Shown: positions 6,458 to 33,007 of the stretch, in pieces | Layout: the number at the start of each line of letters is the position of its first letter | Numbering within the stretch: the first letter of the stretch is position 1 | Virus record (IMG/VR): IMGVR_UViG_3300042542_003367 | Location: 1 to 64,000 of that record | Length of the DNA: 64,000 bases | Reading direction: 5' to 3' (one strand) | Source: a virus | Notes under the pieces: generated by a model | The model's input: only the letters and a program-made list of their open reading frames with translations | What the model was told of the DNA's origin: nothing | Database searches by the model: none | Made by a program: the position numbers and the translations under genes

Positions 6458-6486
6458 ATTATACCAAAATCAATACACTTTGTCAA
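6458..6486 (-). promoter_or_regulatory. promoter P1 (leftward)
   Basis: TTGACA and TATAAT (read on the minus strand) separated by 17 bp. The element TCAATACA overlaps the -35 and recurs 13 bp away in the same orientation. Drives the zinc-ribbon gene at 6187-6438. Confidence 0.88.
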
Positions 6487-6492
6487 TACATT

Positions 6493-6939
6493 TTACTCTG
6501 TTTCCGGCATTTTTTCTGCCGCGAAAAACATGTCCCAATATTTGATATAATCTTCAACTTTCTTGAAGTATCCGTGTTTGAGGTATGCAGTTGTTTTGTG
6601 GCGATACACCACTTCATAGTTGTGGATATATGCCTGTGGGTCGGTAAATAGTGCAACGACATCTTCAATGCACCGGACGCAACACGCTTCTCCGCCCGCT
6701 TCCTGCCACTTGCGCATGAACGACAACTGGTGTGCTGTGGGTCTACCCGCTATAACGAACGGGGACTTCACTTTGGCTTCGCAGAATACCACACGCCCTT
6801 TATAGATATTCAAGCGGTCGGGGATGCCAGCTTCCTGACCCATCGACGCGACGATTTTAACGCTCTTTGCGTCCTTTCCCCATGACTTGAACAGGTCTTT
6901 TATAGCCTGTGATAGCACTGTTTCGTTTTTATATGGCAT
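6493..6939 (-). CDS. VRR-NUC domain nuclease
   Basis: 148 residues from the ATG at 6939, which overlaps the TAA of the membrane gene by one base and has GGAG upstream; the longer open frame simply runs back through that gene. The VRR-NUC core is clear: GIPDRLNIYKGRVVFCEAKV supplies the PD..ExK catalytic triad (D, E, K), followed by PTAHQLSFMRKWQEAGG with the conserved Q. VRR-NUC enzymes cleave structured or branched DNA and are common phage recombination or replication helpers. Single-domain size is typical (the C-terminal about 45 residues are extra). Confidence 0.85.
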   Translation of the reverse strand: MPYKNETVLSQAIKDLFKSWGKDAKSVKIVASMGQEAGIPDRLNIYKGRVVFCEAKVKSPFVIAGRPTAHQLSFMRKWQEAGGEACCVRCIEDVVALFTDPQAYIHNYEVVYRHKTTAYLKHGYFKKVEDYIKYWDMFFAAEKMPETE

Positions 6940-7178
6940 TATTTTGACTCCGATTTTAGTTCGTCTATCCACATATATATAATCATAATTATTGATATAC
7001 CACCTATGATTAATCCGCCTAACGGCAATGACATAATCATTATTTTCAAGATTATATCCTCTGACTTGCTCAACAAAAGCTGAATACCCAAACATAAGCC
7101 ATACTGCAAAGTTAAAATCATCAGAATGATAATAAACGCAATCACAGATGCAATTATTTTGCGGATTATATTTTTCAT
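6939..7178 (-). CDS. small membrane protein with two or three TM segments
   Basis: 79 residues from the ATG at 7178, whose ATGA overlaps the stop of the YopX-like gene and which has GAGG 8 bases upstream. Hydrophobic segments span about 5-30, 45-65. It ends in DELKSESK. Function unknown; position within the nuclease operon suggests co-expression only. Confidence 0.65.
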   Translation of the reverse strand: MKNIIRKIIASVIAFIIILMILTLQYGLCLGIQLLLSKSEDIILKIMIMSLPLGGLIIGGISIIMIIYMWIDELKSESK

Positions 7179-7597
7179 ACACACAACCTCGGATTATCCC
7201 AACTATTCCCGCGCACGAACATACGATATTCGTCGATAACGTCGTGCGTGAGCATTGTCATGTCGTTCCATTCCAACCCTTTCTCCAGCGACTTGATGAT
7301 GAAACCACCCTCGCGGTAGAGTACATGGAATAACAGGACTTCGTGAAAACGATTGATGGCTTGCAGGACATCTCCTTCAAAGATGCCTTTACCATTTTTG
7401 TCCGTCACGCAAGTATACATGCTGATAGTATCAGCCAGCACTGGCTCTTCTGTCTGTATATAAGGGTCTTTGATGAAGTAGGTCTTAACCAGCATTTCTT
7501 CACCGTCTTCCCTTACTTCAATACGCAACATGGTAACAAGGCTACCTATGACCCATCTACCCGTTGGTGTCTTTGCTCTACAGAATATGTCACGCAT
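7175..7597 (-). CDS. YopX-family protein
   Basis: 140 residues with the YopX hallmark: an N-terminal RDIFCRAKTPTGRWVIGSL, a central CVTDKNGKGIFEGDVLQ (usually TGLxDKNGKxIYEGDI) and a C-terminal beta region. YopX proteins are widespread in phages of Firmicutes and other hosts and form a beta-rich oligomer; the biochemical role is not settled. It lies between a small unknown gene and the membrane gene, with a 4-base overlap to the latter. Confidence 0.85.
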   Translation of the reverse strand: MRDIFCRAKTPTGRWVIGSLVTMLRIEVREDGEEMLVKTYFIKDPYIQTEEPVLADTISMYTCVTDKNGKGIFEGDVLQAINRFHEVLLFHVLYREGGFIIKSLEKGLEWNDMTMLTHDVIDEYRMFVRGNSWDNPRLCV

Positions 7598-7601
7598 TTA
7601 C

Positions 7602-7904
7602 TTATACTCCATATTTTACTTTAGCGTCGGCTATTAGGATATGGAAATAGTTTTTCATCTCTTGCTCACTCGCCCAAACATGAGATAGTTTAAAAGCTAC
7701 CGTTCGAGGTTCCATACCTATTAAACCATCTGGCTTCCTGATTTCTTTGACTATTATGTTATATCTATCCACTGATATAACATCTACGGCACGTACATCG
7801 TATGCTCGTATACCATCGTCGGTTAACTGCGCACAATAAAGTGACACCCCTGTTAACTCTGAATCAAGGACGAGTTTTAAAACTCGCGCAAAGTGTTCGT
7901 TCAT
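7602..7904 (-). CDS. unknown 100-residue protein
   Basis: Not recognised. Alternating beta and helical segments with no Cys or catalytic pattern. Its ATG overlaps the stop of the preceding gene (ATGA) and it follows GGGAG. Translationally coupled within the same leftward run. Confidence 0.65.
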   Translation of the reverse strand: MNEHFARVLKLVLDSELTGVSLYCAQLTDDGIRAYDVRAVDVISVDRYNIIVKEIRKPDGLIGMEPRTVAFKLSHVWASEQEMKNYFHILIADAKVKYGV

Positions 7905-8377
7905 TTTTGTACTCCCTTTTTTAAAATTTCAATAGCTTCTTGTAACAAAGCTACATCTTTCATCATTTGTGTTACTTGTTTTTTATAGAACTGTGCTTGA
8001 TTGTCACTCAATAGCAGAACTCTTGATGAGCGACATTTTCGTTGTTCTATATCTATATTTAATTCACCCTGTATCTCTTCTGCCTTTTTATGATAACGTT
8101 CAGATAATTCTTGAAGAGATTTTATTAGTGTAGGAGACACTACTACGCAAAACAATTGCGTATTACGATATTGCACGTTACTTTGTGACCCGGGCGGCGG
8201 ATAAGAGTCGCGTTCTTTAATATTACATTCATGGCACATGTTATCTGTAAACACCCTTCCGCGACGTAAATATACAGGGTCATCGCTATCTTTCCAAGGT
8301 CGGCTTACACCGCATCTTTGGCATACCCACATCTTAGGTTCTTTTTGACGTTTTTTAAACCAGTCTGACCAACTCAT
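7901..8377 (-). CDS. zinc-finger and coiled-coil protein
   Basis: 158 residues from the ATG at 8377, preceded by AGGAG. Residues about 18-60 hold CQRC and CHEC pairs (one zinc site). From about 85 to the end the protein is helical and charged with heptad-like spacing, so it probably dimerises through a coiled coil. The same ribbon-plus-coil plan appears in the neighbouring gene at 8629-9072. Confidence 0.65.
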   Translation of the reverse strand: MSWSDWFKKRQKEPKMWVCQRCGVSRPWKDSDDPVYLRRGRVFTDNMCHECNIKERDSYPPPGSQSNVQYRNTQLFCVVVSPTLIKSLQELSERYHKKAEEIQGELNIDIEQRKCRSSRVLLLSDNQAQFYKKQVTQMMKDVALLQEAIEILKKGVQK

Positions 8378-8387
8378 GATTTTTCTC

Positions 8388-8642
8388 CTATAACTCAATA
8401 AAATAATACACACCATCTATATCACAAGCTAAACCAGTTTTCCCTTCTGTATTCGTGATATATCTGAGCGTATTTACAGGTACTTTGATTAAGGTATTCA
8501 CAGTATTTATACGTACTGTATTATCACAGTTTATGTTTATGACTTTATTACCCTCTCCTTCTTTGTACCAGCTTGAAGCTAACTCACTTACCTTGCTCCA
8601 GCGATGAAGAGAAAGATATAGTACTAAATCAATGTCTGTCAT
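8388..8642 (-). CDS. unknown 84-residue protein
   Basis: Start at 8642 has AGGAG at ideal spacing. Predicted one N-terminal helix followed by beta strands; no motif recognised. It overlaps the end of the upstream coiled-coil gene by 14 bases, suggesting coupling. Confidence 0.6.
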   Translation of the reverse strand: MTDIDLVLYLSLHRWSKVSELASSWYKEGEGNKVININCDNTVRINTVNTLIKVPVNTLRYITNTEGKTGLACDIDGVYYFIEL

Positions 8643-9072
8643 TATCTTTCTCCTGCAACAACGGAAGAACATCACCTATCAATTCGTTTATCTCCTGCTG
8701 TAAGATATGATAAGTACGCGATACCTCTTCTTTTGCCTGACGTAAACTCTTTAGCCTTTTATTGATACCCTGCATAGTGTCGGGTACTTCATTAATAGTT
8801 GTTTCTTCGCGCTCTGCCTTTTGCTTTTCAAATTCCTTTAATCTCTGGCTATTCATTTTTAGTGACGCTCGTGCTTTAGTTATATTCGCTTGGCATTCGT
8901 GGATAGCACCCTGAATAAAGCAGTCAGGACATAACCATCCACTGCAATCTTTTTCTTTTGCTGGTATATGTACCCATTTCCACCCAAACCCTCTGGCTTC
9001 CTCATAAATATGTTCTATTTCCACACGCAGTTCCATTCTGGTCTGGCATTCTCTGCATTCAATCGTAGACAT
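8629..9072 (-). CDS. zinc-binding coiled-coil protein (paralogue of 24859-25062 and 27638-28213)
   Basis: 147 residues. An N-terminal CRECQ knuckle and a CPDC knuckle at about residue 48 flank a GFGWKWVHIP motif; a long coiled coil follows. The same order, CxxC-type ligands, GW(K/R)(W/Y)VH and (C)xxC, recurs in the protein at 27638-28213 and in shorter form at 24859-25062, so these appear to be paralogues. Role unknown; the zinc module may bind a nucleic acid or a host protein. Confidence 0.7.
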   Translation of the reverse strand: MSTIECRECQTRMELRVEIEHIYEEARGFGWKWVHIPAKEKDCSGWLCPDCFIQGAIHECQANITKARASLKMNSQRLKEFEKQKAEREETTINEVPDTMQGINKRLKSLRQAKEEVSRTYHILQQEINELIGDVLPLLQEKDNDRH

Positions 9073-9074
9073 AA

Positions 9075-9353
9075 TTATAACCCTCTCTTCGCCATAAATA
9101 TGGCAATAATAATTCTGCGCATATTTGCGCGTTTAATCTCGCGGCGGATTTTAGCTTCCCACTTGCGCAGTGCGTCTGGATTTCCTACTGTAGCATTAAT
9201 ACTACATCGAAAGTCTAAAGTCGGTGGAGTATTCCATGCACTTGCTATGTCTCCTATTTTATAATTAACAGACATATCTCTCATCCCCACTGGAGTATGT
9301 TCATCTCCGGCGAAAAACAAGAAGTTATTTATATCGAAATCTTTCGGTTCCAT
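9075..9353 (-). CDS. unknown 92-residue protein
   Basis: First gene downstream of promoter P2. The N-terminus is acidic and beta-like, the C-terminal half is very basic (KWEAKIRREIKRANMRR), followed by a short hydrophobic stretch, so nucleic-acid or membrane contact is possible. GAGGGAAC precedes the ATG. Not recognised. Confidence 0.6.
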   Translation of the reverse strand: MEPKDFDINNFLFFAGDEHTPVGMRDMSVNYKIGDIASAWNTPPTLDFRCSINATVGNPDALRKWEAKIRREIKRANMRRIIIAIFMAKRGL

Positions 9354-9374
9354 AGTTCCCTCTCTTACTCATCT

Positions 9375-9403
9375 ATTATACCAAATTGTATTGAACTTGT
9401 CAA
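9375..9403 (-). promoter_or_regulatory. promoter P2 (leftward)
   Basis: TTGACA and TATAAT with 17-bp spacing on the minus strand. The -35 element is one arm of the inverted repeat TGTATTGA-ACTTG-TCAATACA (plus-strand reading). Drives the run from 9353 leftward. Confidence 0.9.
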
Positions 9404-9417
9404 TACAGTTTAATACT

Positions 9418-9855
9418 TTATTTTGATTGTTTCTCCTTCACCACAACGCGCACAGCCACAGAGACATCAAAATTAGCTTTCCCTTTCTGAACAGTAGCGT
9501 GTGGTTCCGCTATCAGATACATCTCCTGACCTTTGATAGCGTCGAACTCCTGCATAAGCTGATTGATTAAAGCCTGTATCCGGCTGGCGTGGATAATCTC
9601 TTCTTTCGACATTTTGTGCTGTACCACGTCGTTATCAGCGGCTACTTCTGATACTAATAGTGTTATTGTATGTGCTTTAGGTTTACCACAAAGAGCCACA
9701 GCTTCTTTTAATTTATCAACAGACAGTACAGCTTCATGTACAGCAGGAATAGCTGTGCCTTTGTGGTTGCCATACAAATCTTTTAACATATCGTCCTGAC
9801 GCTGGCGCAAACCTTCTGACATTCTGCGGTTAATTTCATCGAACATGGTACTCAT
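9418..9855 (-). CDS. unknown 145-residue protein
   Basis: Start at 9855 has GGGAG upstream and follows the stop of the helicase gene by two bases. The protein is helical in the middle (residues 75-100) with a C-terminal beta region ending in Lys-rich VVVKEKQSK. Its tight coupling to the SF1 helicase gene suggests a replication or recombination accessory role, but no family is recognised. Confidence 0.65.
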   Translation of the reverse strand: MSTMFDEINRRMSEGLRQRQDDMLKDLYGNHKGTAIPAVHEAVLSVDKLKEAVALCGKPKAHTITLLVSEVAADNDVVQHKMSKEEIIHASRIQALINQLMQEFDAIKGQEMYLIAEPHATVQKGKANFDVSVAVRVVVKEKQSK

Positions 9856-9857
9856 AT

Positions 9858-12389
9858 TTACATCTCCCAATCTATCGCCATAGCTGACGCTGGCGACGCA
9901 AGTATTAACGTTTCCGAAGCACGTGTGGCTCCCACGTAGAACACGCGGCGAATGCTGTCACGCTCTTCTTCTGTCCCGTTCCATTCGTTCATGCCTTTTT
10001 TAGATAAATCAGGCATCACAATAACTACCTCAGCTTCTCCACCCTTAACACTATGTATAGTGCCAACGGTTAGTTTCGGCTTCGCATTTAGTGTGTCCTT
10101 GCCATAGAGTTGTGCTATGCGCAAGGGATAGTTCGCACTTTCCTGATATTCATTTTTGAGTTGATTGTACCACCAGTCTATATCAGGCTCAGTTGTCACA
10201 AGACGAATGACTTCATCTTCTTCAAATATCTCCATCAGTGCTTCCGCAGATGATATACGATAAGCGAATTCTGACTGCCCCCACATCTCCAGCACTTTAC
10301 TCGCGCCACGCTTAATCAGACCGTCTTTGATTTTCATCGCCGAAGCCCACAGCGCAATGTCCTGCGTATTCCACGGTGTGCTGTTAATCCCGTCTTTTAA
10401 AGAGTATTTCAGATACGCCATAATCCTTGCTATCATCTTCGCTTTTTTCTGCAAAGGGTTCCAGTCGCCGCGCTTCGGTCTGTACGTGTTGGAGAACGGC
10501 ACACCGTTGTCCATTAATGACTTGATAGTAGGAGACAGCATATAACTGCATGATGCGAGTATCATGACTGTTTTACCATCGCGCAAAAACTTATCGGCTA
10601 CCTCGCAGACATATTCAGGGTTTTTATAATGGAACGCGGACGGCATATAACCTACCAGACCATCTTCGTCCTTACCTACAAATTCCTTCGGCTGGCGCAC
10701 GTTGACACGTTCTATCCACTTCTTGGTGAACTTCAATATTTTGCGCGGCAGTCTGCGTGATAATGGCAGTACTTTTATGTGCTTTGGGTCTATGGCAGGG
10801 AATAAAAATGCTTCCGGTGACGCACCAGCGAAACGGTAAATGCAGTTGTGCGTCACTATTCCGTCTGCTATATATGAGTGGGTTTTCTCAACATTTAAAC
10901 CCACAACATCTCCTTTATAGTATTCACGGGAGACCTGTATCGGCTCCCATATAACCTTTCTATCTTGTGTAGGAATAGGTACACTCATAACTTCTGGCAA
11001 TAAATTACAAGCAATCACTTTCATGTTTCTTGCGCCATAAACATTTAACGTACCCTTTTTAAAAATAGGGAACTCAGGGTATCTACCGCAAGCCGCCAAG
11101 CATTTATATGCCCGTGCTTTTTGTTCTACTGGATTTAACCTTCCCCATAAATATTTTATAGATTCTGGATTAACATATCCAGCAATTCCTGCATTGGTAG
11201 GCTCAAAACATAAAGTAGGTATTCCGTATTGTGCAGAATAGTAATTTTCTAACACAGAAGCATGTTGTCGGGTATCTGTTACTTCTAATACCCATGCTTC
11301 ATCTGTATTTTCTTGTCTGCACCTCACAGGTAAATGCAAACACCCATCTGCCCGCATTAATTTACACCACCCTATTTTCCATCTATCTGCCTGTCGCATC
11401 AGGTATACAACACACTGTTCACTATGATGAGCATTGTTATTCATTCTTACTACCCACGGGTGATTATGAGTAGTAACTGTGGATAAATTTCCTACAGTTA
11501 CTCTTACTGCGCTACCATCGTATGGAGTCCGTGCAATCTCTGTTACCACTTGATTACATTGTATTTTACTATGCGTAAAATTGTAACCTCTGATTTTATC
11601 TCCAATTTCTAAATCTTCGATATTTTTAACTGAATTATCCGACATTGTGATTTTTGTCCCCAAGACCCCTGCTTGGTCATCGTCCCCGGCTTTTAATACA
11701 TACCGCATATTTTTCATCCATTTATTAATTAAAGACAACTGCAAACGGCTACAATCCTGCACTTCGTCATATATCCCTATCTCCGGTCTATCAGGCGCAT
11801 AGTCAACGTCGCGCAGACACCTGTAGATTAAGTCGTTATAGTCAAGGCATCCGGTTTCATATTTCCATGTTTTCCATTCTTCCGCGAAGTCAGCCACATC
11901 ATCAGGATAGCTTTCTTTCGGCTCCATGCGTGAACGCAGGACGTTTAGCTGGCTTAATAACTTCGCACCTTCGAGGTCGTCAGAAGAAGGCATCTCGTCA
12001 AGGTCGTCCACACTGGCGGCAGAAGAGCCTGTTATCCGCCATTGTGGGTGACTGTCGTTCCAACTGCCGATAACCTTGTTAGTCTCAGCTATTTTAATGC
12101 CACCGCCTAACGCCTTATAACAGATACTGTGGAGAGTACCGATATTCGGATACACAGTATCTTCGTAATCGTCCTCACCATACAGTGCCGCATTCTCTTT
12201 ATCAATACGCGCTACCAGTTCCTTCGCCGCGCCCTTGGTAAAAGATGATATTAACACGTTCTGCAATATACCCTGCTGGATAAATTTTCGGATATATGTC
12301 ATCAATGTATATGTCTTACCAGTACCCGGGCTACCGAAGAGTCTGTGTTCTGTGCCGTGTTGAACATTGTCATCTATGAAGTTGTCCAT
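9858..12389 (-). CDS. UvrD/PcrA-like SF1 DNA helicase, interrupted by an intein
   Basis: 843 residues as translated; the spliced product would be about 567. Helicase motifs are in order: Walker A GSPGTGKTYT (residues 19-28), motif II YDEVQD (207-212), motif III GDDDQ joined to CIYRFAGA across the intein, motif V GTIHSVKGGEAEVV, motif VI RVFYVGATRASETL. The enzyme would unwind DNA 3' to 5' in phage replication or repair. The intein (A240-N515) sits exactly inside motif III, between Q239 and C516, so the helicase is inactive until splicing. AAGGGG precedes the ATG; the primase gene ends 9 bases upstream, so the two are co-transcribed. Confidence 0.92.
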   Translation of the reverse strand: MDNFIDDNVQHGTEHRLFGSPGTGKTYTLMTYIRKFIQQGILQNVLISSFTKGAAKELVARIDKENAALYGEDDYEDTVYPNIGTLHSICYKALGGGIKIAETNKVIGSWNDSHPQWRITGSSAASVDDLDEMPSSDDLEGAKLLSQLNVLRSRMEPKESYPDDVADFAEEWKTWKYETGCLDYNDLIYRCLRDVDYAPDRPEIGIYDEVQDCSRLQLSLINKWMKNMRYVLKAGDDDQAGVLGTKITMSDNSVKNIEDLEIGDKIRGYNFTHSKIQCNQVVTEIARTPYDGSAVRVTVGNLSTVTTHNHPWVVRMNNNAHHSEQCVVYLMRQADRWKIGWCKLMRADGCLHLPVRCRQENTDEAWVLEVTDTRQHASVLENYYSAQYGIPTLCFEPTNAGIAGYVNPESIKYLWGRLNPVEQKARAYKCLAACGRYPEFPIFKKGTLNVYGARNMKVIACNLLPEVMSVPIPTQDRKVIWEPIQVSREYYKGDVVGLNVEKTHSYIADGIVTHNCIYRFAGASPEAFLFPAIDPKHIKVLPLSRRLPRKILKFTKKWIERVNVRQPKEFVGKDEDGLVGYMPSAFHYKNPEYVCEVADKFLRDGKTVMILASCSYMLSPTIKSLMDNGVPFSNTYRPKRGDWNPLQKKAKMIARIMAYLKYSLKDGINSTPWNTQDIALWASAMKIKDGLIKRGASKVLEMWGQSEFAYRISSAEALMEIFEEDEVIRLVTTEPDIDWWYNQLKNEYQESANYPLRIAQLYGKDTLNAKPKLTVGTIHSVKGGEAEVVIVMPDLSKKGMNEWNGTEEERDSIRRVFYVGATRASETLILASPASAMAIDWEM
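10845..11672 (-). other. intein in helicase motif III (276 residues)
   Basis: Begins at A240 (AGVLGTKITM) and ends at H514-N515, with C516 as +1 residue. Block A is VLGTKI..., block B is TTHNHPW (T307, H310), block F is VVGLNV with a later KTHSYIADG, block G is VTHN. The first residue is Ala, not Cys or Ser, so the classical first acyl shift is impossible. No LAGLIDADG motif is seen. The insert contains CVVYLMRQADRWKIG and a later SAQYGIP segment, a module I recall from other phage inteins and possibly a degenerate GIY-YIG-like fold. It appears to be a splicing-only intein. Confidence 0.9.
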
Positions 12390-12398
12390 ACTACCCCT

Positions 12399-14102: not shown

Positions 14103-14171
14103 AAGTCCCCCGTATCGTTTTGCGTGACATTAACTGTAGCAGATACGTGCTAAAAAGTAAAGACAATAAAT

Positions 14172-14201
14172 GTAGTGTCTGCCTGTGCAGACAGACACTA
14201 C
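14172..14201 (-). terminator. strong hairpin between SSB-like and primase genes
   Basis: A 10-bp perfect stem GTAGTGTCTG / CAGACACTAC with a further CTG/CAG pairing inside. On the leftward transcript it follows the stop of the 14225-15145 gene and is followed by ATTTATTGTCTTTAC, only moderately U-rich. It may attenuate transcription so that the abundant SSB-like protein is made in excess over the primase. A weak promoter (TTTACT, 17 bp, TACAGT) could lie just downstream. Confidence 0.55.
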
Positions 14202-15176: not shown

Positions 15177-15205
15177 ATTATACCATATTCAATACAATTT
15201 GTCAA
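15177..15205 (-). promoter_or_regulatory. promoter P3 (leftward)
   Basis: TTGACA and TATAAT at 17 bp on the minus strand. The -35 lies in the last codons of the upstream gene, so the promoter reinforces expression of 14225-15145. Half-sites TCAATACA and TCAACCCT are in direct orientation. Confidence 0.85.
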
Positions 15206-16595: not shown

Positions 16596-16618
16596 TACCA
16601 TTCCTCTCTTACACATCT

Positions 16619-16647
16619 ATTATACCAAATTGTATTGAACTTGTCAA
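16619..16647 (-). promoter_or_regulatory. promoter P4 (leftward)
   Basis: TTGACA and TATAAT with 17 bp, nearly identical to P2 including the inverted repeat TGTATTGA-ACTTG-TCAATACA. Drives 16595 leftward. Confidence 0.9.
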
Positions 16648-16666
16648 TACAATTTGGTAATTATTT

Positions 16667-22029: not shown

Positions 22030-22058
22030 ATTATACTAAATTAAATACACTTTGTCAA
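22030..22058 (-). promoter_or_regulatory. promoter P5 (leftward)
   Basis: TTGACA and TATAAT with 17 bp on the minus strand. Half-sites TAAATACA and TCAATACA are in direct orientation. The predicted start point is at the 5' hairpin of the structured leader. Confidence 0.88.
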
Positions 22059-22077
22059 TACATTTTAAGGATTATTT

Positions 22078-23580: not shown

Positions 23581-23581
23581 A

Positions 23582-23949: not shown

Positions 23950-23978
23950 ATTATACCATATTGTATTTAATCTGTCAA
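23950..23978 (-). promoter_or_regulatory. promoter P6 (leftward)
   Basis: TTGACA and TATAAT with 17 bp. The -35 lies within the last codons of the clamp-like gene. Half-site in the spacer (TGTATTTA) is in inverted orientation relative to the -35 copy. Confidence 0.85.
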
Positions 23979-25406: not shown

Positions 25407-25407
25407 A

Positions 25408-25617
25408 TCAACCTCGCTTCGCGGGAATATTCATTGGCTTAATTTCAGCTATCGAACACTCCATACACCGGATGAACATACCATCGTCAGTCTCGTCCAA
25501 ACGCTGGTCAAATTCAAGACACTTTTCAGAGTCGCTACTCAATCCGGGGCAGTTCGGTGCGCATAAACCACCTATCACTCTGGCTTTCTTCTTTATTTGT
25601 AGTGTTACTTCTGGCAT
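25408..25617 (-). CDS. small zinc-binding protein
   Basis: 69 residues from the ATG at 25617 (GAGG upstream). Cys at CAPNCPG, then KCLEF and RCMECS give a possible zinc site. Neighbour of the clamp genes; function unknown. Confidence 0.6.
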   Translation of the reverse strand: MPEVTLQIKKKARVIGGLCAPNCPGLSSDSEKCLEFDQRLDETDDGMFIRCMECSIAEIKPMNIPAKRG

Positions 25618-25621
25618 AATA

Positions 25622-25837
25622 TTAATCCTCACTCATCAGACAATAATCTTTGTCCACATACAGCTTGCGGAACGGCACTACCGATACCCGCTTCCAACCG
25701 TCTTTGCCGCGAACCTCGTGGCGCAGGGATGATGTATTAAACGCGTACCGTGATTTCTGGTCAACGGAATACCACCTGCCCCGCTTTAAAAAATATCCAT
25801 TGTCTTTCAACCACTTCTCAATCTCTAACAAAGTCAT
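25622..25837 (-). CDS. unknown 71-residue basic protein
   Basis: ATG at 25837 with GGAAGG upstream, just after a hairpin. WLKDNGYFLKRGRWYSVD and RKLYVDKDY are its recognisable stretches. Basic and beta-rich; might bind nucleic acid. Confidence 0.55.
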   Translation of the reverse strand: MTLLEIEKWLKDNGYFLKRGRWYSVDQKSRYAFNTSSLRHEVRGKDGWKRVSVVPFRKLYVDKDYCLMSED

Positions 25838-25853
25838 CGGACACACACCTTCC

Positions 25854-25877
25854 GCCGGAGAGCCGTAACTCTCCGGC
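25854..25877 (-). other. hairpin between clamp gene and next RBS
   Basis: Perfect 9-bp stem GCCGGAGAG / CTCTCCGGC with a 6-base loop, directly abutting the ribosome binding site GGAAGG of the next leftward gene. Same placement as the leader hairpins behind promoters; could stabilise the clamp mRNA or tune the next gene. Confidence 0.65.
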
Positions 25878-25896
25878 AAACATAATATCCCGCAGA

Positions 25897-27222
25897 TTAA
25901 ATCTGCATCGGCATGATTACATGCTTCTCATCTCCATCCTCAATTAAGATAGGATTCAGACCATCGCAGTCCGCAAACCGGAGTATAACTTTCTCACTGT
26001 CAACCATGCTCAACGCGTCCAATAAGAACGTATTGTTAATGCCATACCGGAACGGCACTATCTCGTTGTTTTCCAGTTCCGGCACTCTGCTCATGTGTGC
26101 CTTCCCTGTTTCAGTGTTAATATTGCGATACCACGCAAAATCAAACTGGAAAAATTCAGGTGACATTTTCATCTTAACTGAGCCGTCCGCAGTGCCGATA
26201 TACTGCTCTTCATCATTCGCGAACATCACCATTTTAGAGATGTCAGTGATTTTCAGCACCTTGGTCAACCGCGTCACCATGTCAATGAATATACCACGGT
26301 CAGCCTTCATCATATTGTCCCTTTCTGTGGGGATAACACGGCGGAATGGCGGGTAGTTCGCATCAATCTGCTTCATGGAGATAACAATGTTATCGTAAGC
26401 AAACATCACATCGTTCCGGTCGTTTTTAAACACGCGCACCATGCTTTTACCAAGTTTTAACCGCTTGATAACAATCGCGGGGATAAGCAGATTTTCGGTA
26501 ACATTCACGTCCTCGAATTGCTCTTCTTCACGCAGGACAATTTCCCTTCCATTGCCATCACACATTATCTCATCCAACTCGTTCCGCTGGAATATCTTTT
26601 TCATGCCCACTTTCTTACTTACTGCATTAACTCGCGGGGGCAACTGCTCCCACTGTATCGGCACGGCTATGAGTCTGTGCGTGTCGGTTGCAACGGCGGT
26701 TAACGTTCCGGCGGTCTGGTCGGCTTCAAAGAATACGCCTGTCAGCGCAATGCGTCCTTCATCACTGGATACGTATTTCAGCAGTTTTTTAAACGCACGA
26801 GTCAAGCAACAGGCACTCACATTGCCAAGGTCTTGCGCAGTGGTGTCACGTTCCGGCACGGTAGGAAAGTCAAACGCATCGTTCACCATATCCTTGTTAA
26901 GTGTCAGTCTGGTTTCTGCGTCGAACATAACAACGCTATCCACACCTTGCTCAAGAGTAATAGTATCACTCTTAAATATTCCCAGAATGGACTCCAGATA
27001 CGCGACATTAATCGCTGTGAATACTGTGCCATCGGAGAAGCCGGACAGGTGAGCAGTGACTGCCATTTCAAGGTCTGTACAGACCATTTTGAAGGTGCTG
27101 TCATCGGTTGTCTCGATTTTCACTGCTGATAATATCGGCAGTTTAGTCTGTTTGCTGATAGCGGTCTTTACGACGGCTAAGTTAGTCAGCATGTTTGTTT
27201 TTCCGAAAATTAACTTGTTCAT
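25897..27222 (-). CDS. dnaN: DNA polymerase sliding clamp (beta subunit, DnaN-like)
   Basis: 441 residues, longer than the usual about 370. The N-terminal domain is typical (NLAVVKTAISKQTKLPILSA), the second has ALTGVFFEADQTAGTL and TDTHRLIAVP, the third FLLDALSMVDSEKVILRF, ending with VIMPMQI. It would form a ring that tethers a polymerase to DNA and recruits other enzymes. No DNA polymerase gene is in the window. GAGAGGAAACC precedes the ATG. Placed between the clamp-associated small genes and an acidic protein. Confidence 0.92.
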   Translation of the reverse strand: MNKLIFGKTNMLTNLAVVKTAISKQTKLPILSAVKIETTDDSTFKMVCTDLEMAVTAHLSGFSDGTVFTAINVAYLESILGIFKSDTITLEQGVDSVVMFDAETRLTLNKDMVNDAFDFPTVPERDTTAQDLGNVSACCLTRAFKKLLKYVSSDEGRIALTGVFFEADQTAGTLTAVATDTHRLIAVPIQWEQLPPRVNAVSKKVGMKKIFQRNELDEIMCDGNGREIVLREEEQFEDVNVTENLLIPAIVIKRLKLGKSMVRVFKNDRNDVMFAYDNIVISMKQIDANYPPFRRVIPTERDNMMKADRGIFIDMVTRLTKVLKITDISKMVMFANDEEQYIGTADGSVKMKMSPEFFQFDFAWYRNINTETGKAHMSRVPELENNEIVPFRYGINNTFLLDALSMVDSEKVILRFADCDGLNPILIEDGDEKHVIMPMQI

Positions 27223-27243
27223 GGTTTCCTCTCTCTTTATTTA

Positions 27244-27552
27244 TTATCGCGCCTGTGCGATAAAGCGGTCAGTCCCGGGGATTTCTATAACAGTGGTATA
27301 ATCTTTTACATCGTCCAGACTATCCCATTCGCGGAACGAGTGCTGGTCGGCAAATTGCTCGAAACTTTCCCATTCGTAAAAGTCACAGGCAATAGCCACA
27401 ACGTCCAGTTCGGACTCAATATCGCATCCTGCGTCACACTCTTCAAGGAACGCAAACAACGCTTGCAGACCTTCGTAAGAAAAATGTTCGCGGTATGACT
27501 CTGACCTTCTGAACGAGTCAATAAAAAGATTCTCTGTGACTGTTATTTTCAT
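27244..27552 (-). CDS. acidic conserved phage protein
   Basis: 102 residues, strongly acidic (about a quarter D or E). FSYEGLQALFAFLEECD followed by ELDVVAIACDFYEWESF matches a small conserved phage family I recall as uncharacterised or antirestriction-like. Acidic proteins of this size often mimic DNA, but that is inference. Expressed from P7 through a leader hairpin. Confidence 0.65.
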   Translation of the reverse strand: MKITVTENLFIDSFRRSESYREHFSYEGLQALFAFLEECDAGCDIESELDVVAIACDFYEWESFEQFADQHSFREWDSLDDVKDYTTVIEIPGTDRFIAQAR

Positions 27553-27565
27553 TCTGTACCCCTTC

Positions 27566-27578
27566 CTGCTATAAGCAG
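27566..27578 (-). promoter_or_regulatory. leader hairpin 1
   Basis: CTGCT-TAT-AGCAG on the minus strand, directly before GAAGGGG, the ribosome binding site of 27244-27552. Part of a family of sequence-different, pairing-conserved leader hairpins. Confidence 0.7.
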
Positions 27579-27602
27579 TGTCTCTCTCTTGATTACGTAT
27601 AT

Positions 27603-27631
27603 ATTATACCATAATCAATACAGTTTGTCAA
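27603..27631 (-). promoter_or_regulatory. promoter P7 (leftward)
   Basis: TTGACA and TATAAT with 17 bp. Two TCAATACA half-sites in direct orientation. Drives 27552 leftward into the clamp operon. Confidence 0.9.
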
Positions 27632-27637
27632 TACAAT

Positions 27638-28213
27638 TTAAAGATTTTCTAAATCTTTTTCTAAATTAATTATAGTTGCATTAGAGTCCTCGACACGGCG
27701 CAAGTAAGTGCGTATCCGGTCTTGGTGCATTTTTATAGTGGCTTTTATGGCGCACCTTTTGCACAGAAAATTATTCCCGTGAACGTATCGCCATCCCATG
27801 CTCTCCAGTGTACCCTGTATCTGCTCGAATTCCAGACAGCTTTGATTATCCGGCACTGGTATAGACACTTCGGCGTAGCACTCATCTCCGGCGCATTTAA
27901 TGGTCTCACTGGTCTTGCGTGTGCCGAGATTCATAAACGTCTCCACATACAGGTAAAAGTCATTGTTCGGCATCACAACATGATATACACGCCCGTCAAT
28001 CGGCAGTCCTGACTTGCGGATGATACTTGCATTTTCCACCGGAGTTATTACTGCCTTTTCAGCTTCTGACAGATAGTACTGTTGTAAAAAATCGGGAATA
28101 TGGTCAAATTCTCCAATCTCCTCGATAACTGAATATCTGGTATCGTCATCAACGAAATCTGTCACCACGTCATTTATGCGCACACCGATAGCACGAAATT
28201 TATTGTCTGCCAT
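27638..28213 (-). CDS. zinc-binding coiled-coil protein (paralogue of 8629-9072)
   Basis: 191 residues. N-terminal half helical and acidic; from about residue 100 the zinc module CAGDEC, GWRYVHG and CKRC, then a short coiled coil. Shares the order of ligands and the GW-VH motif with two other proteins of this phage. Function unknown. Confidence 0.7.
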   Translation of the reverse strand: MADNKFRAIGVRINDVVTDFVDDDTRYSVIEEIGEFDHIPDFLQQYYLSEAEKAVITPVENASIIRKSGLPIDGRVYHVVMPNNDFYLYVETFMNLGTRKTSETIKCAGDECYAEVSIPVPDNQSCLEFEQIQGTLESMGWRYVHGNNFLCKRCAIKATIKMHQDRIRTYLRRVEDSNATIINLEKDLENL

Positions 28214-28217
28214 AATA

Positions 28218-28421
28218 TTACCCGCCTTTTTGTTCGTTCACAATCTGGTCTAATTGACCTGATAACTCAACCACTGAGTCCACACAATTCCCTAATTCGG
28301 AACTTGTACAATGGTCAAATTGACCATCCACATTCTCCACTTTTATGTCAATTAGCGCGTGACGTAATATGTTTACCGCTAATTTCAATTCATCAATAAT
28401 TTTACCCTGCTTTACTGTCAT
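28218..28421 (-). CDS. small helical acidic protein
   Basis: 67 residues, helical, with AAGGGGG before the ATG. Sequence CVDSVVELSGQLDQIVNEQKGG suggests a coiled coil. Not recognised. Confidence 0.6.
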   Translation of the reverse strand: MTVKQGKIIDELKLAVNILRHALIDIKVENVDGQFDHCTSSELGNCVDSVVELSGQLDQIVNEQKGG

Positions 28422-28431
28422 GGTTGCCCCC

Positions 28432-29388
28432 TTACTTTAAAGTAATATACATCCGGTTGTTATCGAACTTTGACCACATGCACTTCACATCGCGGTAACT
28501 GTTAGATACCGACATCGTTGATTGTTTCTGAGCGTGTGCAACTTTCTTAACGGTAAATTCTTGCCCGCCGTAACTCTTAATCACTGTGCCACGCTTTTTC
28601 AGGTCGTCCACGGTTGCAAGGCGATAACCTTCCGGCATTGCACTCGCTATCTGCTGTATCCATGCTTCTTTTTCAGCTTGCTTAATACGCTTTTTCGCAT
28701 TCTCTTCTTCTGCGCGTTGCGCCCAGTATGCTTTGCTCTCTTCATCCTTAACGCGCTCTGCTTCCGCTTGTACCGCTTGTGCTTCCACAATCTGGTCAGC
28801 AGTCAGTCCGGTCAAAGTCTGAATAAACTGGTCAACATCACACTCCATGATATAAGACAGGTCAATGATAATATACCATGTGGGTAATCCCCACATCTTT
28901 AGCGGTTGACCAACGGCAATGTTACCATGACAGAATTCCATCGCGGGCTTACCAAAGTTGAAATAAATTTCCTCAGCGTCCTTCATATCCTTACAACTGG
29001 TGAATACGTGGAAGCCGTTGCTATCCATTTGTGTGCGCCAGATATTATCGAATGAGCGGAGACTGTGTGCTATTGCCCGCTTTTTACCTATGTCAATAGC
29101 GTTATACTTCACGCCCAGACTCTTATTACCATTCTGAATGAGATTTTTATACACAACTCCACTACCTGTGTAATTCCACACGCCGTGAACGGTAATTTGT
29201 GTCTTATAAGTTAATATCGAAAAGCCCTGATTTTCCAGTGCCAACATTGCTTCAATAGACAGTCCACCTTCCAGACTGTCAACTATATCCTGTGGAATAA
29301 CCTTGCCCGGACATAAATTATTGCCCTTGCGGGTGTTGGTGAACGTGTCACTGGTATGCAGTACTTTGTCTATTTTCTGGTAATTCAT
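28432..29388 (-). CDS. unknown 318-residue protein with a helical arm
   Basis: N-terminal 190 residues globular with beta segments; residues about 205-260 form a long charged helix rich in E, A and K; the C-terminus is again beta-like. No family recognised. First gene of the P8 transcript, with a leader hairpin and AAAGGGG, so it is probably well expressed early. Confidence 0.75.
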   Translation of the reverse strand: MNYQKIDKVLHTSDTFTNTRKGNNLCPGKVIPQDIVDSLEGGLSIEAMLALENQGFSILTYKTQITVHGVWNYTGSGVVYKNLIQNGNKSLGVKYNAIDIGKKRAIAHSLRSFDNIWRTQMDSNGFHVFTSCKDMKDAEEIYFNFGKPAMEFCHGNIAVGQPLKMWGLPTWYIIIDLSYIMECDVDQFIQTLTGLTADQIVEAQAVQAEAERVKDEESKAYWAQRAEEENAKKRIKQAEKEAWIQQIASAMPEGYRLATVDDLKKRGTVIKSYGGQEFTVKKVAHAQKQSTMSVSNSYRDVKCMWSKFDNNRMYITLK

Positions 29389-29403
29389 GGTTTGCGCCCC
29401 TTT

Positions 29404-29416
29404 CTGCCGTCGGCAG
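29404..29416 (-). promoter_or_regulatory. leader hairpin 2
   Basis: CTGCC-GAC-GGCAG directly before AAAGGGG of 28432-29388. Confidence 0.7.
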
Positions 29417-29438
29417 TACGTTTCTTAATTACGAGTAT

Positions 29439-29467
29439 ATTATAGCATATTGTATTGATGTTGTCAA
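29439..29467 (-). promoter_or_regulatory. promoter P8 (leftward)
   Basis: TTGACA and TATAAT with 17 bp; half-sites TGTATTGA and TCAATACC inverted. Promoter and leader are closely similar to P9, suggesting duplication of a control cassette. Confidence 0.9.
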
Positions 29468-29551
29468 TACCCCTGAGCAACTATTTGAAAAATTGATTTA
29501 AAAGCCCGTCACGGCACAGAATGACTACCAGACAGGGAAATGGTCAAATAT

Positions 29552-29584
29552 GTGCCAGATACGCGAAATTCGGCGGTCTGGCAC
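29552..29584 (-). terminator. terminator-like hairpin after the 30-kb pair
   Basis: Perfect 8-bp stem GTGCCAGA / TCTGGCAC with a 17-base loop, 17 bases after the stop of 29601-29912 and before P8. No strong U-run follows, so termination may be weak or Rho-assisted. Confidence 0.5.
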
Positions 29585-29600
29585 GAAAAACGGCGGGTAA

Positions 29601-29912
29601 TTACAGGTTGTGTAATTGCTTTAGTCTGTGGTACTCTGCGTCTGCGTCCAGACAAGGCAATTTACGGAATAATTCACTCAGGCGGTAAACTTCCTGCTCT
29701 ACCGTTGCATTGAGTCGCATAGGTTCATCAGTCACTAACCAATAATCAGGATTACACGGCGGTTTACTGACAATTATGATACCTGTATCGCGCCCTTCCT
29801 TAAATGGCAGGTAATATACATAATACCGGATACTCGTATCTTGACACTGAATGTTAAACCAATGTTTAACTTCCAACTCTATCCGGTTGCACACATCTGA
29901 CCATGTTTTCAT
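29601..29912 (-). CDS. unknown 103-residue protein
   Basis: ATGA overlap with the upstream gene. Beta-rich (DTSIRYYVYYLPFKEGRDT) then a helical C-terminus. No motif recognised. Confidence 0.65.
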   Translation of the reverse strand: MKTWSDVCNRIELEVKHWFNIQCQDTSIRYYVYYLPFKEGRDTGIIIVSKPPCNPDYWLVTDEPMRLNATVEQEVYRLSELFRKLPCLDADAEYHRLKQLHNL

Positions 29913-30328
29913 ATTCTCCCCCTTGCTTCCATTTGTTCGCGTATAATCTGCTTTAAGTGAAGCACGATTGACGCATATTTCCAGTCATGCACACCGCCAA
30001 TTAAAGGTAATACACACCCCAGACAGGCTTCACGGCATTTATCCCATGAAATGTTAACCAACTCACTTTTCATAAATTCATCAATAATGTCGTCCTGAGC
30101 GGATGATGAATAAGCCCCCCACACCTTTTGCGCATATTGACGCGCACCCTCAGCAGGTAATAACGGCACAGACTCCGGCGAATTGCCTAACAGTTCCTGC
30201 GCCTGTTTCAACGCAACGGCATAATCCTGCAAGGTTAATAAAGCCCGCGCCCGGGTAACATTATCGGCAGAATATAAAGCCGGATTTATAACCGCTAAAA
30301 GTTCGTTTGCTAAATTGGTAATATACAT
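29909..30328 (-). CDS. unknown 139-residue helical protein
   Basis: Mostly helical (LLAVINPALYSADNVTRARA...), with a C-terminal basic helix. Coupled to 29601-29912 by a 4-base overlap. Not recognised. Confidence 0.65.
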   Translation of the reverse strand: MYITNLANELLAVINPALYSADNVTRARALLTLQDYAVALKQAQELLGNSPESVPLLPAEGARQYAQKVWGAYSSSAQDDIIDEFMKSELVNISWDKCREACLGCVLPLIGGVHDWKYASIVLHLKQIIREQMEARGRI

Positions 30329-30388
30329 AATATCCCCACACCCTGTATTATTATTGACCGCAGGGTGACGGCAGAAAGAAAGATAATA

Positions 30389-30619
30389 TTAGTTAACGCT
30401 GATATACTTTAAACGCTTGAAATTTCTGTAGTCACCTTTGCAGATGTAAAAGCCCACAACGTATTTGCCCCGCATTATCTGAGATACGCGCTGTCTGGCA
30501 ATATCTACCATATTAGAAAATCGTAACCGCCCGTCCAGTGGCATACAACCGTCACTACCGCACATCGGCGCAGGTTCACCACTTAAACCGTTTACGTAAT
30601 ACTCAGCGAAATACTTCAT
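30389..30619 (-). CDS. unknown 76-residue protein
   Basis: Contains PAPMCGSDGCMPLDGR and a basic C-terminal half (RQRVSQIMRGKYVVGF). Expressed from P9 with leader hairpin 3 and AAAGGGG. Not recognised. Confidence 0.65.
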   Translation of the reverse strand: MKYFAEYYVNGLSGEPAPMCGSDGCMPLDGRLRFSNMVDIARQRVSQIMRGKYVVGFYICKGDYRNFKRLKYISVN

Positions 30620-30632
30620 AATTTACCCCTTT

Positions 30633-30645
30633 CTGCCGTCGGCAG
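30633..30645 (-). promoter_or_regulatory. leader hairpin 3
   Basis: CTGCC-GAC-GGCAG, identical stem to leader hairpin 2, directly before AAAGGGG of 30389-30619. Confidence 0.7.
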
Positions 30646-30667
30646 TTCGTTTCTTATTTACAAGCAT

Positions 30668-30696
30668 ATTATACCATAATATCAGGTTATTGTCAA
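30668..30696 (-). promoter_or_regulatory. promoter P9 (leftward)
   Basis: TTGACA and TATAAT with 17 bp. Only the -35 half-site TCAATACA is intact; the spacer copy is degenerate. Confidence 0.85.
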
Positions 30697-31019
30697 TACA
30701 GTTTGCGCCAATTTAAGGATAATCTCCGATAAATATCACGGCGCAGTTTATCCAGTTCCGTGTGCAATTCAATGGTAATATTCGGATTAGATATATATAT
30801 CTGTGCTTCTGCGTCTAATCTCAGCAACTCAAGCCCCAGACTCCGCTGATTTTCCACACACTCCAGACTATAGCAGTCATTTTTCGCTTCCTCTGGTGTA
30901 ATATTCATTGTTTCCATACATAATTGCAGGTTGATATTGGTATTATATTCAACCGCTAAATTATCCCATGACTCTATAGCGTTTTGACCACACCCTAACA
31001 ATTCGGTTACTGTTAACAT
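30693..31019 (-). CDS. unknown 108-residue helical protein
   Basis: Helical, with acidic middle (TPEEAKNDCYSLECVENQ) and a basic end (RRDIYRRLSLNWRKLY). GGGGG precedes the ATG. Its last codons overlap the -35 of P9. Confidence 0.65.
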   Translation of the reverse strand: MLTVTELLGCGQNAIESWDNLAVEYNTNINLQLCMETMNITPEEAKNDCYSLECVENQRSLGLELLRLDAEAQIYISNPNITIELHTELDKLRRDIYRRLSLNWRKLY

Positions 31020-31034
31020 AATATACCCCCTGAT

Positions 31035-31376
31035 TTAATAAACTTGCGCGGTACTGAGCATTGTATCAATGCGTTGCATTATCCGGCGGTTGTCTGCGTG
31101 TTTTAATTCAGCATGACAAGAGACACACCGTTTCTCATTCAACGCATTAGCACACCCCGCGCAGATATTGCCCGCTATCCGCAAATTCTCTTCACCAATT
31201 AATTGATACAAATACCGCAAACGGTTGGTAATATCAGTTAATTGCTTCACACAGTACCCGTGAAATTCTTTATCTTCACCGCGCAATTTATTTTGTTCAA
31301 CCTGCGACGTTTGGTACTGAAAATCATTCATCAAACTTTCTATTTCACTCTTGATATTTTGTAATTCGGTTTGCAT
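31035..31376 (-). CDS. coiled-coil and zinc-knuckle protein
   Basis: 113 residues: an N-terminal coiled coil (ELQNIKSEIESLMNDF...) and a C-terminal CAGC...CVSCHAELKH zinc knuckle. Resembles DksA/TraR-like small proteins in having a coil plus a four-Cys site, but lacks the acidic DxxDxA tip, so that identity is not claimed. Confidence 0.65.
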   Translation of the reverse strand: MQTELQNIKSEIESLMNDFQYQTSQVEQNKLRGEDKEFHGYCVKQLTDITNRLRYLYQLIGEENLRIAGNICAGCANALNEKRCVSCHAELKHADNRRIMQRIDTMLSTAQVY

Positions 31377-31390
31377 AATATACCCCCGCT

Positions 31391-31612
31391 TTATTGCATT
31401 AACAATATTTTCTCAACTAAGTACCGCGCCCCGTGAGTCTGTGTGCGCAGGTATTTCAATTCACGCTGATTAACAAAATCAGTATCCATGAGAGCAACCG
31501 GATTTTTTAAGCCGGATTTTACTTTGTTCATGCCGTGAGATTTACGGCGCAGATTATTTGCAACCTGCTTTTTATCACTTTTTAAACTGTCTTTATATAT
31601 TCTTAATGCCAT
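31391..31612 (-). CDS. small basic protein
   Basis: 73 residues from the ATG at 31612 (AAGGGG upstream). About a quarter of residues are K or R in the first half (KDSLKSDKKQVANNLRRK). Likely binds nucleic acid. Not recognised. Confidence 0.6.
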   Translation of the reverse strand: MALRIYKDSLKSDKKQVANNLRRKSHGMNKVKSGLKNPVALMDTDFVNQRELKYLRTQTHGARYLVEKILLMQ

Positions 31613-31663
31613 AATATATACACCCCTTAAACTTAATATACCCACACGTTCGATTATTCGGTA

Positions 31664-31882
31664 TTAATACCCCGCGTCACCAAGCCCGCAATTATCCGCA
31701 AACATTTGCCCGCGTAAATCCTTTGCGGTCTGTGACGTTTCACAATACGCCTTTTTATCCGCAGGGTAATATGCTATAGACTCGCCTTTTTTAATCGGTT
31801 TGCCCGTTTCTGCGCACACACTGTCAAATTTCGCAGTGGTAAAATATGGTACTGAATTATAATATCGTTTGTAATATCCCAT
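31664..31882 (-). CDS. small phage zinc-binding protein
   Basis: 72 residues. AKFDSVCAETGKPIKKGESI and a later AYC match a small phage family with a treble-clef-like CxxxGxxIxxGxx...C core. Role unknown. Confidence 0.65.
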   Translation of the reverse strand: MGYYKRYYNSVPYFTTAKFDSVCAETGKPIKKGESIAYYPADKKAYCETSQTAKDLRGQMFADNCGLGDAGY

Positions 31883-31903
31883 GATACACCCCTTTACTGG
31901 TGA

Positions 31904-32044
31904 TTAATATACCCGGCGCAATGGTTTAATTTCCACTGCATAACCATTATTTACAAATATGACGTGAATTTGATATTTATGCTTATTCGCGTTTATCCAT
32001 TCGTCACGCTCTATATAAGAGTCGAAAAATTTTGTTTCCCACAT
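31904..32044 (-). CDS. tiny 46-residue protein
   Basis: ATG at 32044 with AGGGGGG upstream, starting 2 bases after the stop of 32047-32247; ends with TAA at 31904. Sequence begins MWETKFFDSYIERDEW and ends IKPLRRVY, an alpha-beta pattern typical of real small proteins. The tight spacing and ribosome binding site support it. Not recognised. Confidence 0.65.
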   Translation of the reverse strand: MWETKFFDSYIERDEWINANKHKYQIHVIFVNNGYAVEIKPLRRVY

Positions 32045-32046
32045 GA

Positions 32047-32247
32047 TTACGCGCCCCCCTCTATTTTATATTGTACATAGTGTAAAACAGGGTATCCGCA
32101 ACGCTTGCCCTCATTAAACCATTTCATAATTTCTGCGCAACGTTCCTTATCAGTGATTTTAATAGTTCCGCCTTGTACCCATAATTCCAGTGTGCCGTCT
32201 GTATTGACTGCTATATTTTTTAAAACATAACCTTTTAAAATACCCAT
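32047..32247 (-). CDS. unknown 66-residue protein
   Basis: ATG at 32247 with GGGGG upstream. Beta strands followed by a helix (DKERCAEIMKWFNEGKRCG). Not recognised. Confidence 0.6.
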   Translation of the reverse strand: MGILKGYVLKNIAVNTDGTLELWVQGGTIKITDKERCAEIMKWFNEGKRCGYPVLHYVQYKIEGGA

Positions 32248-32314
32248 AATGAATACCCCCGCTTGATTAGTCACCCGCGGGGATTTTACACCCCGCAGAA
32301 TTAATATCCGGCTT

Positions 32315-32560
32315 TTAGTTCGCTGAGTTAATCAACTTCACTAAATCATCCTGTGAAACTTTCTGTGCGTCACCATACCCGGCTAAATTAATATGTTGAC
32401 TGGTAGTGCGGGAAAATTTCTCACTGGTTTGATACTTGTGGATACCGTCACGTAAAATCGTCACCGCTACAGGTGTGGAATAAGAGAATAAAATTCTCGC
32501 ATTGCCCACAGTTACGATATTGCAGTTGGTTGCAATGTTGTCTAATTGAACGTTTGGCAT
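32315..32560 (-). CDS. unknown 81-residue protein
   Basis: Beta-rich (ARILFSYSTPVAVTIL) with a helical end (DDLVKLINSAN). Driven by P10 through leader hairpin 4. Not recognised. Confidence 0.65.
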   Translation of the reverse strand: MPNVQLDNIATNCNIVTVGNARILFSYSTPVAVTILRDGIHKYQTSEKFSRTTSQHINLAGYGDAQKVSQDDLVKLINSAN

Positions 32561-32575
32561 TCTTTGTACCCCTTT

Positions 32576-32589
32576 CTACCCGCAGGTAG
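32576..32589 (-). promoter_or_regulatory. leader hairpin 4
   Basis: CTACC-TGCG-GGTAG on the minus strand directly before AAAGGGG of 32315-32560. Compared with hairpins 2 and 3 both arms are changed and pairing is kept. Confidence 0.7.
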
Positions 32590-32612
32590 TAACCTTTCTT
32601 TATTACGCATAT

Positions 32613-32641
32613 ATTATATCATATTGTATTGACCTTGTCAA
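32613..32641 (-). promoter_or_regulatory. promoter P10 (leftward)
   Basis: TTGACA and TATAAT with 17 bp; half-sites TGTATTGA and TCAATACC inverted. Confidence 0.9.
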
Positions 32642-32666
32642 TACCTTTTACAAACTATTTTTAAAA

Positions 32667-32909
32667 CTAAATCACCACTGCGAAACTATCACCTTGATAC
32701 TGCACTATTTTACAGGATTGAAACCAACGCCCAGAATCTGGATATAAAATACCAATTATATCACTCACGTCATTATCACCAATTAAACCAGATATAAGAG
32801 TATCAACATCACAGTCAACTGTATCCGGTATAAAATCCTGTATTTTACGCGGTATTACTAAATACTCATCATTGCAACTGTTAATCAATAATAAATTGCG
32901 GTCATTCAT
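32667..32909 (-). CDS. unknown acidic 80-residue protein
   Basis: Acidic (PDTVDCDVDTLISGLIGDND), predicted alpha-beta. It is the outermost leftward gene, behind P11 and leader hairpin 5, so likely among the first expressed. Acidic early proteins may act as DNA mimics or inhibitors, but nothing specific is recognised. Confidence 0.65.
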   Translation of the reverse strand: MNDRNLLLINSCNDEYLVIPRKIQDFIPDTVDCDVDTLISGLIGDNDVSDIIGILYPDSGRWFQSCKIVQYQGDSFAVVI

Positions 32910-32923
32910 TATACCCCCCCTTT

Positions 32924-32939
32924 CAGTCTGTGCAGACTG
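32924..32939 (-). promoter_or_regulatory. leader hairpin 5
   Basis: CAGTCT-GCAC-AGACTG (6 bp) directly before AAAGGGGGGG of 32667-32909. Confidence 0.7.
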
Positions 32940-32978
32940 TAAAAACCATTTAAAATGTGTAAACCTTATTACCCCTAT

Positions 32979-33007
32979 ATAATACCATAATCAATACAGT
33001 TTGTCAA
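32979..33007 (-). promoter_or_regulatory. promoter P11 (leftward)
   Basis: TTGACA with TATTAT at 17 bp. Half-sites TCAATACA and TCAATAGC in direct orientation. Outermost leftward promoter. Confidence 0.8.

Follow-up and report, generated by a model that had tools for sequence, protein, structure and literature searches.

An 8-bp box in either orientation within the spacers of leftward promoters in a phage genome

We found that ten of the 11 leftward promoters in a 64-kb stretch of viral DNA (positions 1 to 64,000 of the 65,027-bp IMG/VR virus record IMGVR_UViG_3300042542_003367, hereafter the window) carry inside their 17-bp spacer an 8-bp word at one fixed position, which reads forwards (TGTATTGA) in five of them and as its reverse complement (TCAATACA) in the other five. 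We consider it moderately probable that this word is recognised by one putative sequence-specific DNA-binding protein, likeliest a repressor, that rules the leftward (replication) arm as a single regulon, with the orientation of the spacer copy left free; we infer the protein binding, the repression and the equivalence of both orientations from the sequence pattern. Promoters are numbered P1 to P11 from low coordinates, and the position of each is the first base of its -35 on the minus strand. The copy of the 8-mer that overlaps the -35 is termed box 1 and the copy inside the spacer box 2, and promoters are assigned to the direct class (D) when box 2 is TGTATTGA and to the inverted class (I) when it is TCAATACA.

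Conservation of the spacer box

All 11 leftward promoters have the form TTGACA-N17-TATAAT, save for a single -10 mismatch (TATTAT) at P11, which confirms the fixed -35, spacing and -10 of a preliminary description made from the letters alone, and TGn precedes the -10 at every promoter except P5. Box 2 occupies spacer positions 4-11 wherever it occurs, beginning 3 nt past the -35, with eight exact copies and two copies with one mismatch (Table 1). The second copy 13 bp away that had been described at all 11 promoters is thus present at ten, where the register between both 8-mers is exact, and missing at P9. Box 1 is more variable, and the statement that every -35 lies inside TCAATACA (plus-strand reading) or a variant of it holds exactly at six promoters and with one mismatch at two, the fit being poor or absent at P11, with two mismatches, and at P3 and P6, where three or four mismatches leave box 1 barely above the contribution of TTGACA itself.

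The recurrence of the spacer box exceeds that of random sequence sets. The best recurring 8-mer, scored on either strand at a fixed offset with one mismatch allowed, was found in 10 of the 11 spacers, against a maximum of 5 of 11 in 3000 composition-matched random sets, 7 in 2000 within-spacer shuffles and 3 in 2000 sets of random genomic 17-mers. Additionally, the window contains 16 exact copies of the 8-mer versus 3.9 expected, a count reached in none of 100 shuffles, and all but one of these copies (at 32200) sit in the leftward promoters or in the rightward promoter. The oriented box 2 copies hold 1.4-2.2 bits of information at each of the eight positions, a conservation about equal to that of the -35 and the -10.

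When similar promoter families of three other phages were examined (an 81-kb IMG/VR phage, L010, and the Enterocloster phages CB473P3 and CB457P1), no comparable spacer box was found. The TATTGACA/GTATTGACA extension of the -35 also occurs in unrelated phages that have no box 2, and the extended -35 is therefore partly generic. Of the conserved element described as going far beyond sigma-70 needs, only the spacer box consequently exceeds them clearly. The rightward promoter at 34422 does have the extended -35 attributed to it (TGTATTGACA), but its spacer has 18 bp and lacks the other box. In L010, about ten near-identical TTGACA-N17-TGnTATAAT promoters lie within 4.3 kb, and many of them share GTATTGACA and a GTCACAAAG-type start region. 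A longer, 13-bp box (YAWANTGTATTGA) was considered and set aside: all promoter-associated exact copies have A at -4 and -2, yet the extra bases are those of the CA in TTGACA, of the TG in the extended -10 or of a generally A-rich upstream region that L010 shows as well, and we therefore limit the claim to the 8-bp core.

Table 1. Promoters, their boxes and the candidate regulator gene in the window
Feature	Position	Strand	-35 at	Class	Box 1	Box 2	Remarks
P1	6458..6490	-	6486	D	6483-6490, exact	6470-6477, TGTATTGA	
P2	9375..9407	-	9403	I	9400-9407, exact	9387-9394, TCAATACA	
P3	15177..15205	-	15205	D	absent beyond the -35 itself (AGGGTTGA)	15189-15196, TGTATTGA	
P4	16619..16651	-	16647	I	16644-16651, exact	16631-16638, TCAATACA	
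P5	22030..22062	-	22058	D	22055-22062, exact	22042-22049, TGTATTTA (1 mismatch)	without TGn
P6	23950..23978	-	23978	I	absent (ACACTTGA)	23962-23969, TAAATACA (1 mismatch)	
P7	27603..27635	-	27631	D	27628-27635, exact	27615-27622, TGTATTGA	
P8	29439..29471	-	29467	I	29464-29471, GGTATTGA (1 mismatch)	29451-29458, TCAATACA	
P9	30668..30700	-	30696		30693-30700, exact	none	spacer ATAACCTGATATTATGG
P10	32613..32645	-	32641	I	32638-32645, GGTATTGA (1 mismatch)	32625-32632, TCAATACA	
P11	32979..33011	-	33007	D	33004-33011, GCTATTGA (2 mismatches)	32991-32998, TGTATTGA	-10 TATTAT
Rightward promoter	34418..34451	+			34418-34425, on the -35	none	TGTATTGACA-N18-TATAAT
HTH_17 (excisionase-type winged helix) protein, 173 aa	386..907	-					PF12728, 37.4 bits (cut-off 27); last gene downstream of P1

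Orientation of the spacer box

Next, we investigated the orientation of box 2. The assignment of the ten promoters to direct and inverted pairs in the preliminary description is correct throughout, with five forward copies (P1, P3, P5, P7 and P11) and five reverse copies (P2, P4, P6, P8 and P10), and all ten use a single offset of the seven possible. The two versions of the box differ at four of their eight positions, and their halves are never mixed within a box (five D and five I, fully linked; p-value 0.004); because hybrid boxes do not occur, we read the box as an asymmetric, oriented word. Furthermore, cassettes of opposite orientation can have related upstream and/or leader flanks, as in P2 (I) and P1 (D), P10 (I) and P7 (D), and P10 (I) and P5 (D), and the flip is therefore confined to the box while its surroundings are retained. 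The leaders of P8 and P9 are nearly identical, and P9 has either lost its box 2 or never had one. The difference between related cassettes thus lies mainly in the spacer, most of all in the box, which is forward, reversed or absent, and this amounts to a natural experiment on operator orientation.

In the mechanism that we propose, a putative repressor on box 2 would sit between the -35 and the -10 and exclude RNA polymerase, and a second protomer on box 1 would assist it at most promoters. The orientation of box 1 would be locked, its TTGA belonging to TTGACA, whereas box 2 would be free of promoter constraint and functional both ways, so that direct and inverted arrangements could have accumulated equally, giving the 5:5 split. 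Since the promoters are already near the sigma-70 consensus, mostly with an extended -10, negative control is the simpler expectation. A regulator that tolerates either orientation, as had been suggested, fits the conservation, the fixed register, the oriented word and the equal split well; each of the half-sites that it was said to contact may instead be a complete site, given that P3 and P6 have essentially one box.

The leaders of P7, P8, P9, P10 and P11 (window 27553-32978, minus strand) each have a small hairpin that abuts an AAAGGGG-type ribosome-binding site on its upstream side. Its stems vary (CAGUCU/AGACUG, CUACC/GGUAG, CUGCC/GGCAG twice, and CUGCU/AGCAG), which suggests that conservation concerns the structure and not its sequence; the z-scores of single-sequence folds are unremarkable.

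Candidate regulators and evidence against a repressor

The regulator could be the HTH_17 protein encoded at 386-907 or a host protein. The former is the only helix-turn-helix protein recognised in the phage, and its single-sequence structural model shows a winged-helix core (residues 50-96) and a C-terminal helix at low confidence (predicted local distance difference test score, pLDDT, 52); it would be the sole candidate regulator in the genome, albeit a weak one proposed by domain match. Across the whole record, no match was found to integrase (PF00589), resolvase (PF00239), HTH_3 repressor (PF01381) or ParA (PF13614), and a lysogeny repressor is therefore not expected; a protein of early-gene shut-off or a host repressor would be more likely. 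The phage, which has no recognisable lysogeny module, may run a genome-wide circuit of repression or shut-off through a putative regulator.

Several observations weigh against the proposed repressor. The HTH_17 protein is a candidate by domain match only, and the failure to find the four families named above counts on the same side. Box 2 is missing at P9, and P3 and P6 have no box 1. Because the promoters are in part paralogous, every p-value that assumes their independence is optimistic. In L5 phages, reversed sites stop repressing (PMC9283540), so that tolerance of orientation is no general rule. Finally, as regards conservation, phages, IMG/VR and the genome collection yielded no close relative.

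The searches for relatives covered both proteins and DNA. Megablast against phages returned none, and IMG/VR searches with the terminase, the SNF2 helicase, the major capsid protein and the HTH_17 protein returned one distant contig (with the terminase) and otherwise none. The TOPRIM-like protein encoded at 4188-5096 aligned at 57% identity at best, and the matching contigs share at most one further gene and have no such promoters. When the box was sought as a DNA pattern within a promoter context, IMG/VR gave 42 stretches, none with a family of boxes, and GTDB genomes gave 10 single matches. Single promoters compared by BLAST with phages and plasmids gave weak, generic promoter matches only.

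Alternative explanations

An unlikely account is that no regulator is involved: the promoters would all derive from a single cassette with which the box spread, and direct and inverted copies of the -35 region would have entered the spacer through replication slippage and hairpin template switching. For several pairs of cassettes, the similarity of upstream or leader sequence does reach at least the 99.9th percentile of random pairs, and box 2 repeats box 1 in one orientation or the other. At P4, two 14-bp arms form a perfect dyad (window 16615-16659; CCAAATTGTATTGA-CAAGT-TCAATACAATTTGG), also detected on the plus strand as a 16-pair inverted repeat and possibly a trace of hairpin template switching. 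However, most cassette flanks are less well retained than the box, and P3 has an intact box 2 and P6 a nearly intact one, although box 1 is degenerate or absent there. Moreover, ten identical registers in both orientations would require repeated replacements that each kept the spacer at exactly 17 bp.

The D and I promoters could instead be two regulatory classes that differ in timing, cooperativity or regulators, which we regard as rather unlikely. Along the genome the two orientations nearly alternate (9 runs among 10 promoters; runs test, p-value 0.04, post hoc), and A stands at spacer position 2 in 5/5 D versus 1/5 I promoters (p-value 0.048, post hoc). Additionally, recognisable replication or nucleotide enzymes are found in 4/5 D versus 1/5 I units, but this enrichment is not significant per unit (p-value 0.21, post hoc) and depends on assumed transcription-unit borders. 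These tests were picked after looking, and indifference to orientation would also give 5:5; the two regulators or classes that had been raised as the other option thus draw slight encouragement, from the runs test and the enzymes. More doubtful still is a specific form of this idea, in which orientation would be a regulatory code: one regulator would read direct and inverted pairs differently, such that replication and accessory units, nearly alternating, would differ in strength or timing although their promoters are otherwise almost identical.

It is improbable that the box binds an activator or a phage factor associated with RNA polymerase that marks promoters for use in infection. A position fixed relative to the -35 and -10 in both orientations and a single regulon-wide element would suit such a factor, but the near-consensus promoters hardly call for one, a polymerase-touching factor would be expected to favour one orientation, and P9 does without box 2.

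Very unlikely, finally, is a symmetric dimer that reads each box as the pseudo-palindrome TSWATWSA in ribbon-helix-helix (RHH) fashion, so that orientation hardly matters: TGTATTGA and its reverse complement do agree at T1, A4, T5 and A8, and the centre-to-centre distance is equal for direct and inverted boxes, but the symmetric hybrids TGTATACA and TCAATTGA occur in 0/10 boxes (p-value 0.004), and the genome has no RHH_1 match even at E 10, nor any RHH family among the scanned leftward proteins. An identical D arrangement does occur in a further virus contig, L033 (10852-10880, minus strand), where a promoter with a direct TGTATTGA pair 13 bp apart is followed by genes for a small RHH-like protein (57 aa) and a pRha-like regulator. 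This route to an RHH protein was rejected: L033 offers one promoter, the family assignment is sub-threshold (DUF6290 18.5 bits, NikA-like 14.0, cut-offs 27), no PDB relative was found, and the phage studied here has no RHH match; the resemblance may be coincidence.

Comparison with known operator systems

Phage-wide operators are already known, and they are usually of fixed orientation or in arrays. The same element at many promoters of one phage, which defines a dispersed operator, is found here at 10 of the 11 leftward promoters, and on present evidence the arrangement would work like the dispersed-operator systems of P1 C1, SPbeta MrpR and L5 while appearing to be a member of none. An integrase or plasmid partition function with a CI-like repressor, by which temperate immunity would be recognised, was not found in the probably complete record.

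Phage P1 C1 has 22 dispersed asymmetric 17-bp operators (PMC8546580), and the likeness lies in many asymmetric copies across a phage genome that control lytic and replication genes (PMC8546580). In contrast to the box described here, however, the 17-bp C1 operator is ATTGCTCTAATAAATTT, unrelated to TGTATTGA (consensus from PMC8546580, compared by eye), and C1 belongs to a plasmid prophage with a known repressor and antirepressors, proteins that were not found here. The MrpR/SPBRE system of SPbeta likewise repeats its element in many promoter regions, there in a Gram-positive phage under one master repressor (PMC10516654), but its motif has 15 bp, its repressor a tyrosine-recombinase fold and its phage a temperate life; the genome has no match to PF00589 (Phage_integrase), a model that a diverged MrpR-like protein could escape. 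The immunity repressor of the L5 type also binds numerous short, asymmetric sites as a monomer, and some of these lie in early promoters (PMC9283540, PMC6550527), whereas L5 operators and stoperators lie mostly outside promoters and in one orientation relative to transcription, and here the boxes lie in promoters, with box 2 five times forward and five times reverse.

Two further systems share the combination of short repeats with promoters. The omega (ParB) protein of pSM19035 binds short boxes that overlap promoters and are direct or inverted (PMC9499535); unlike the two 8-bp boxes 13 bp apart found here, its boxes are contiguous 7-bp heptads (WATCACW), read by an RHH protein with a role in partition. 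Apl of phage 186 is of the excisionase type, as is the HTH_17 protein at 386-907, and represses early promoters via short repeats (PMC7498355), but these lie 10-11 bp apart as direct repeats, with five to seven in each array, in contrast to the pairs 13 bp apart, in either orientation, described here.

Genome organisation

A 127-bp exact repeat stands at the two ends of the record (window 1-127 equals record positions 64901-65027), and the genome is thus probably complete despite the linear class of the record. The left arm is read leftwards and encodes DNA metabolism (sliding clamp, primase-like protein, UvrD-like helicase, SNF2 helicase, TOPRIM-like protein and MazG), and the right arm is read rightwards, with terminase, capsid and tail-type genes and an amidase-like gene. 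Between the divergent arms lies an AT-rich, apparently non-coding stretch of about 1.4 kb (window 33010-34420), a possible replication origin. The UvrD-like helicase gene (window 9858-12389) is split by an intein-like domain (residues 247-515) with a Pfam score under the curated cut-off.

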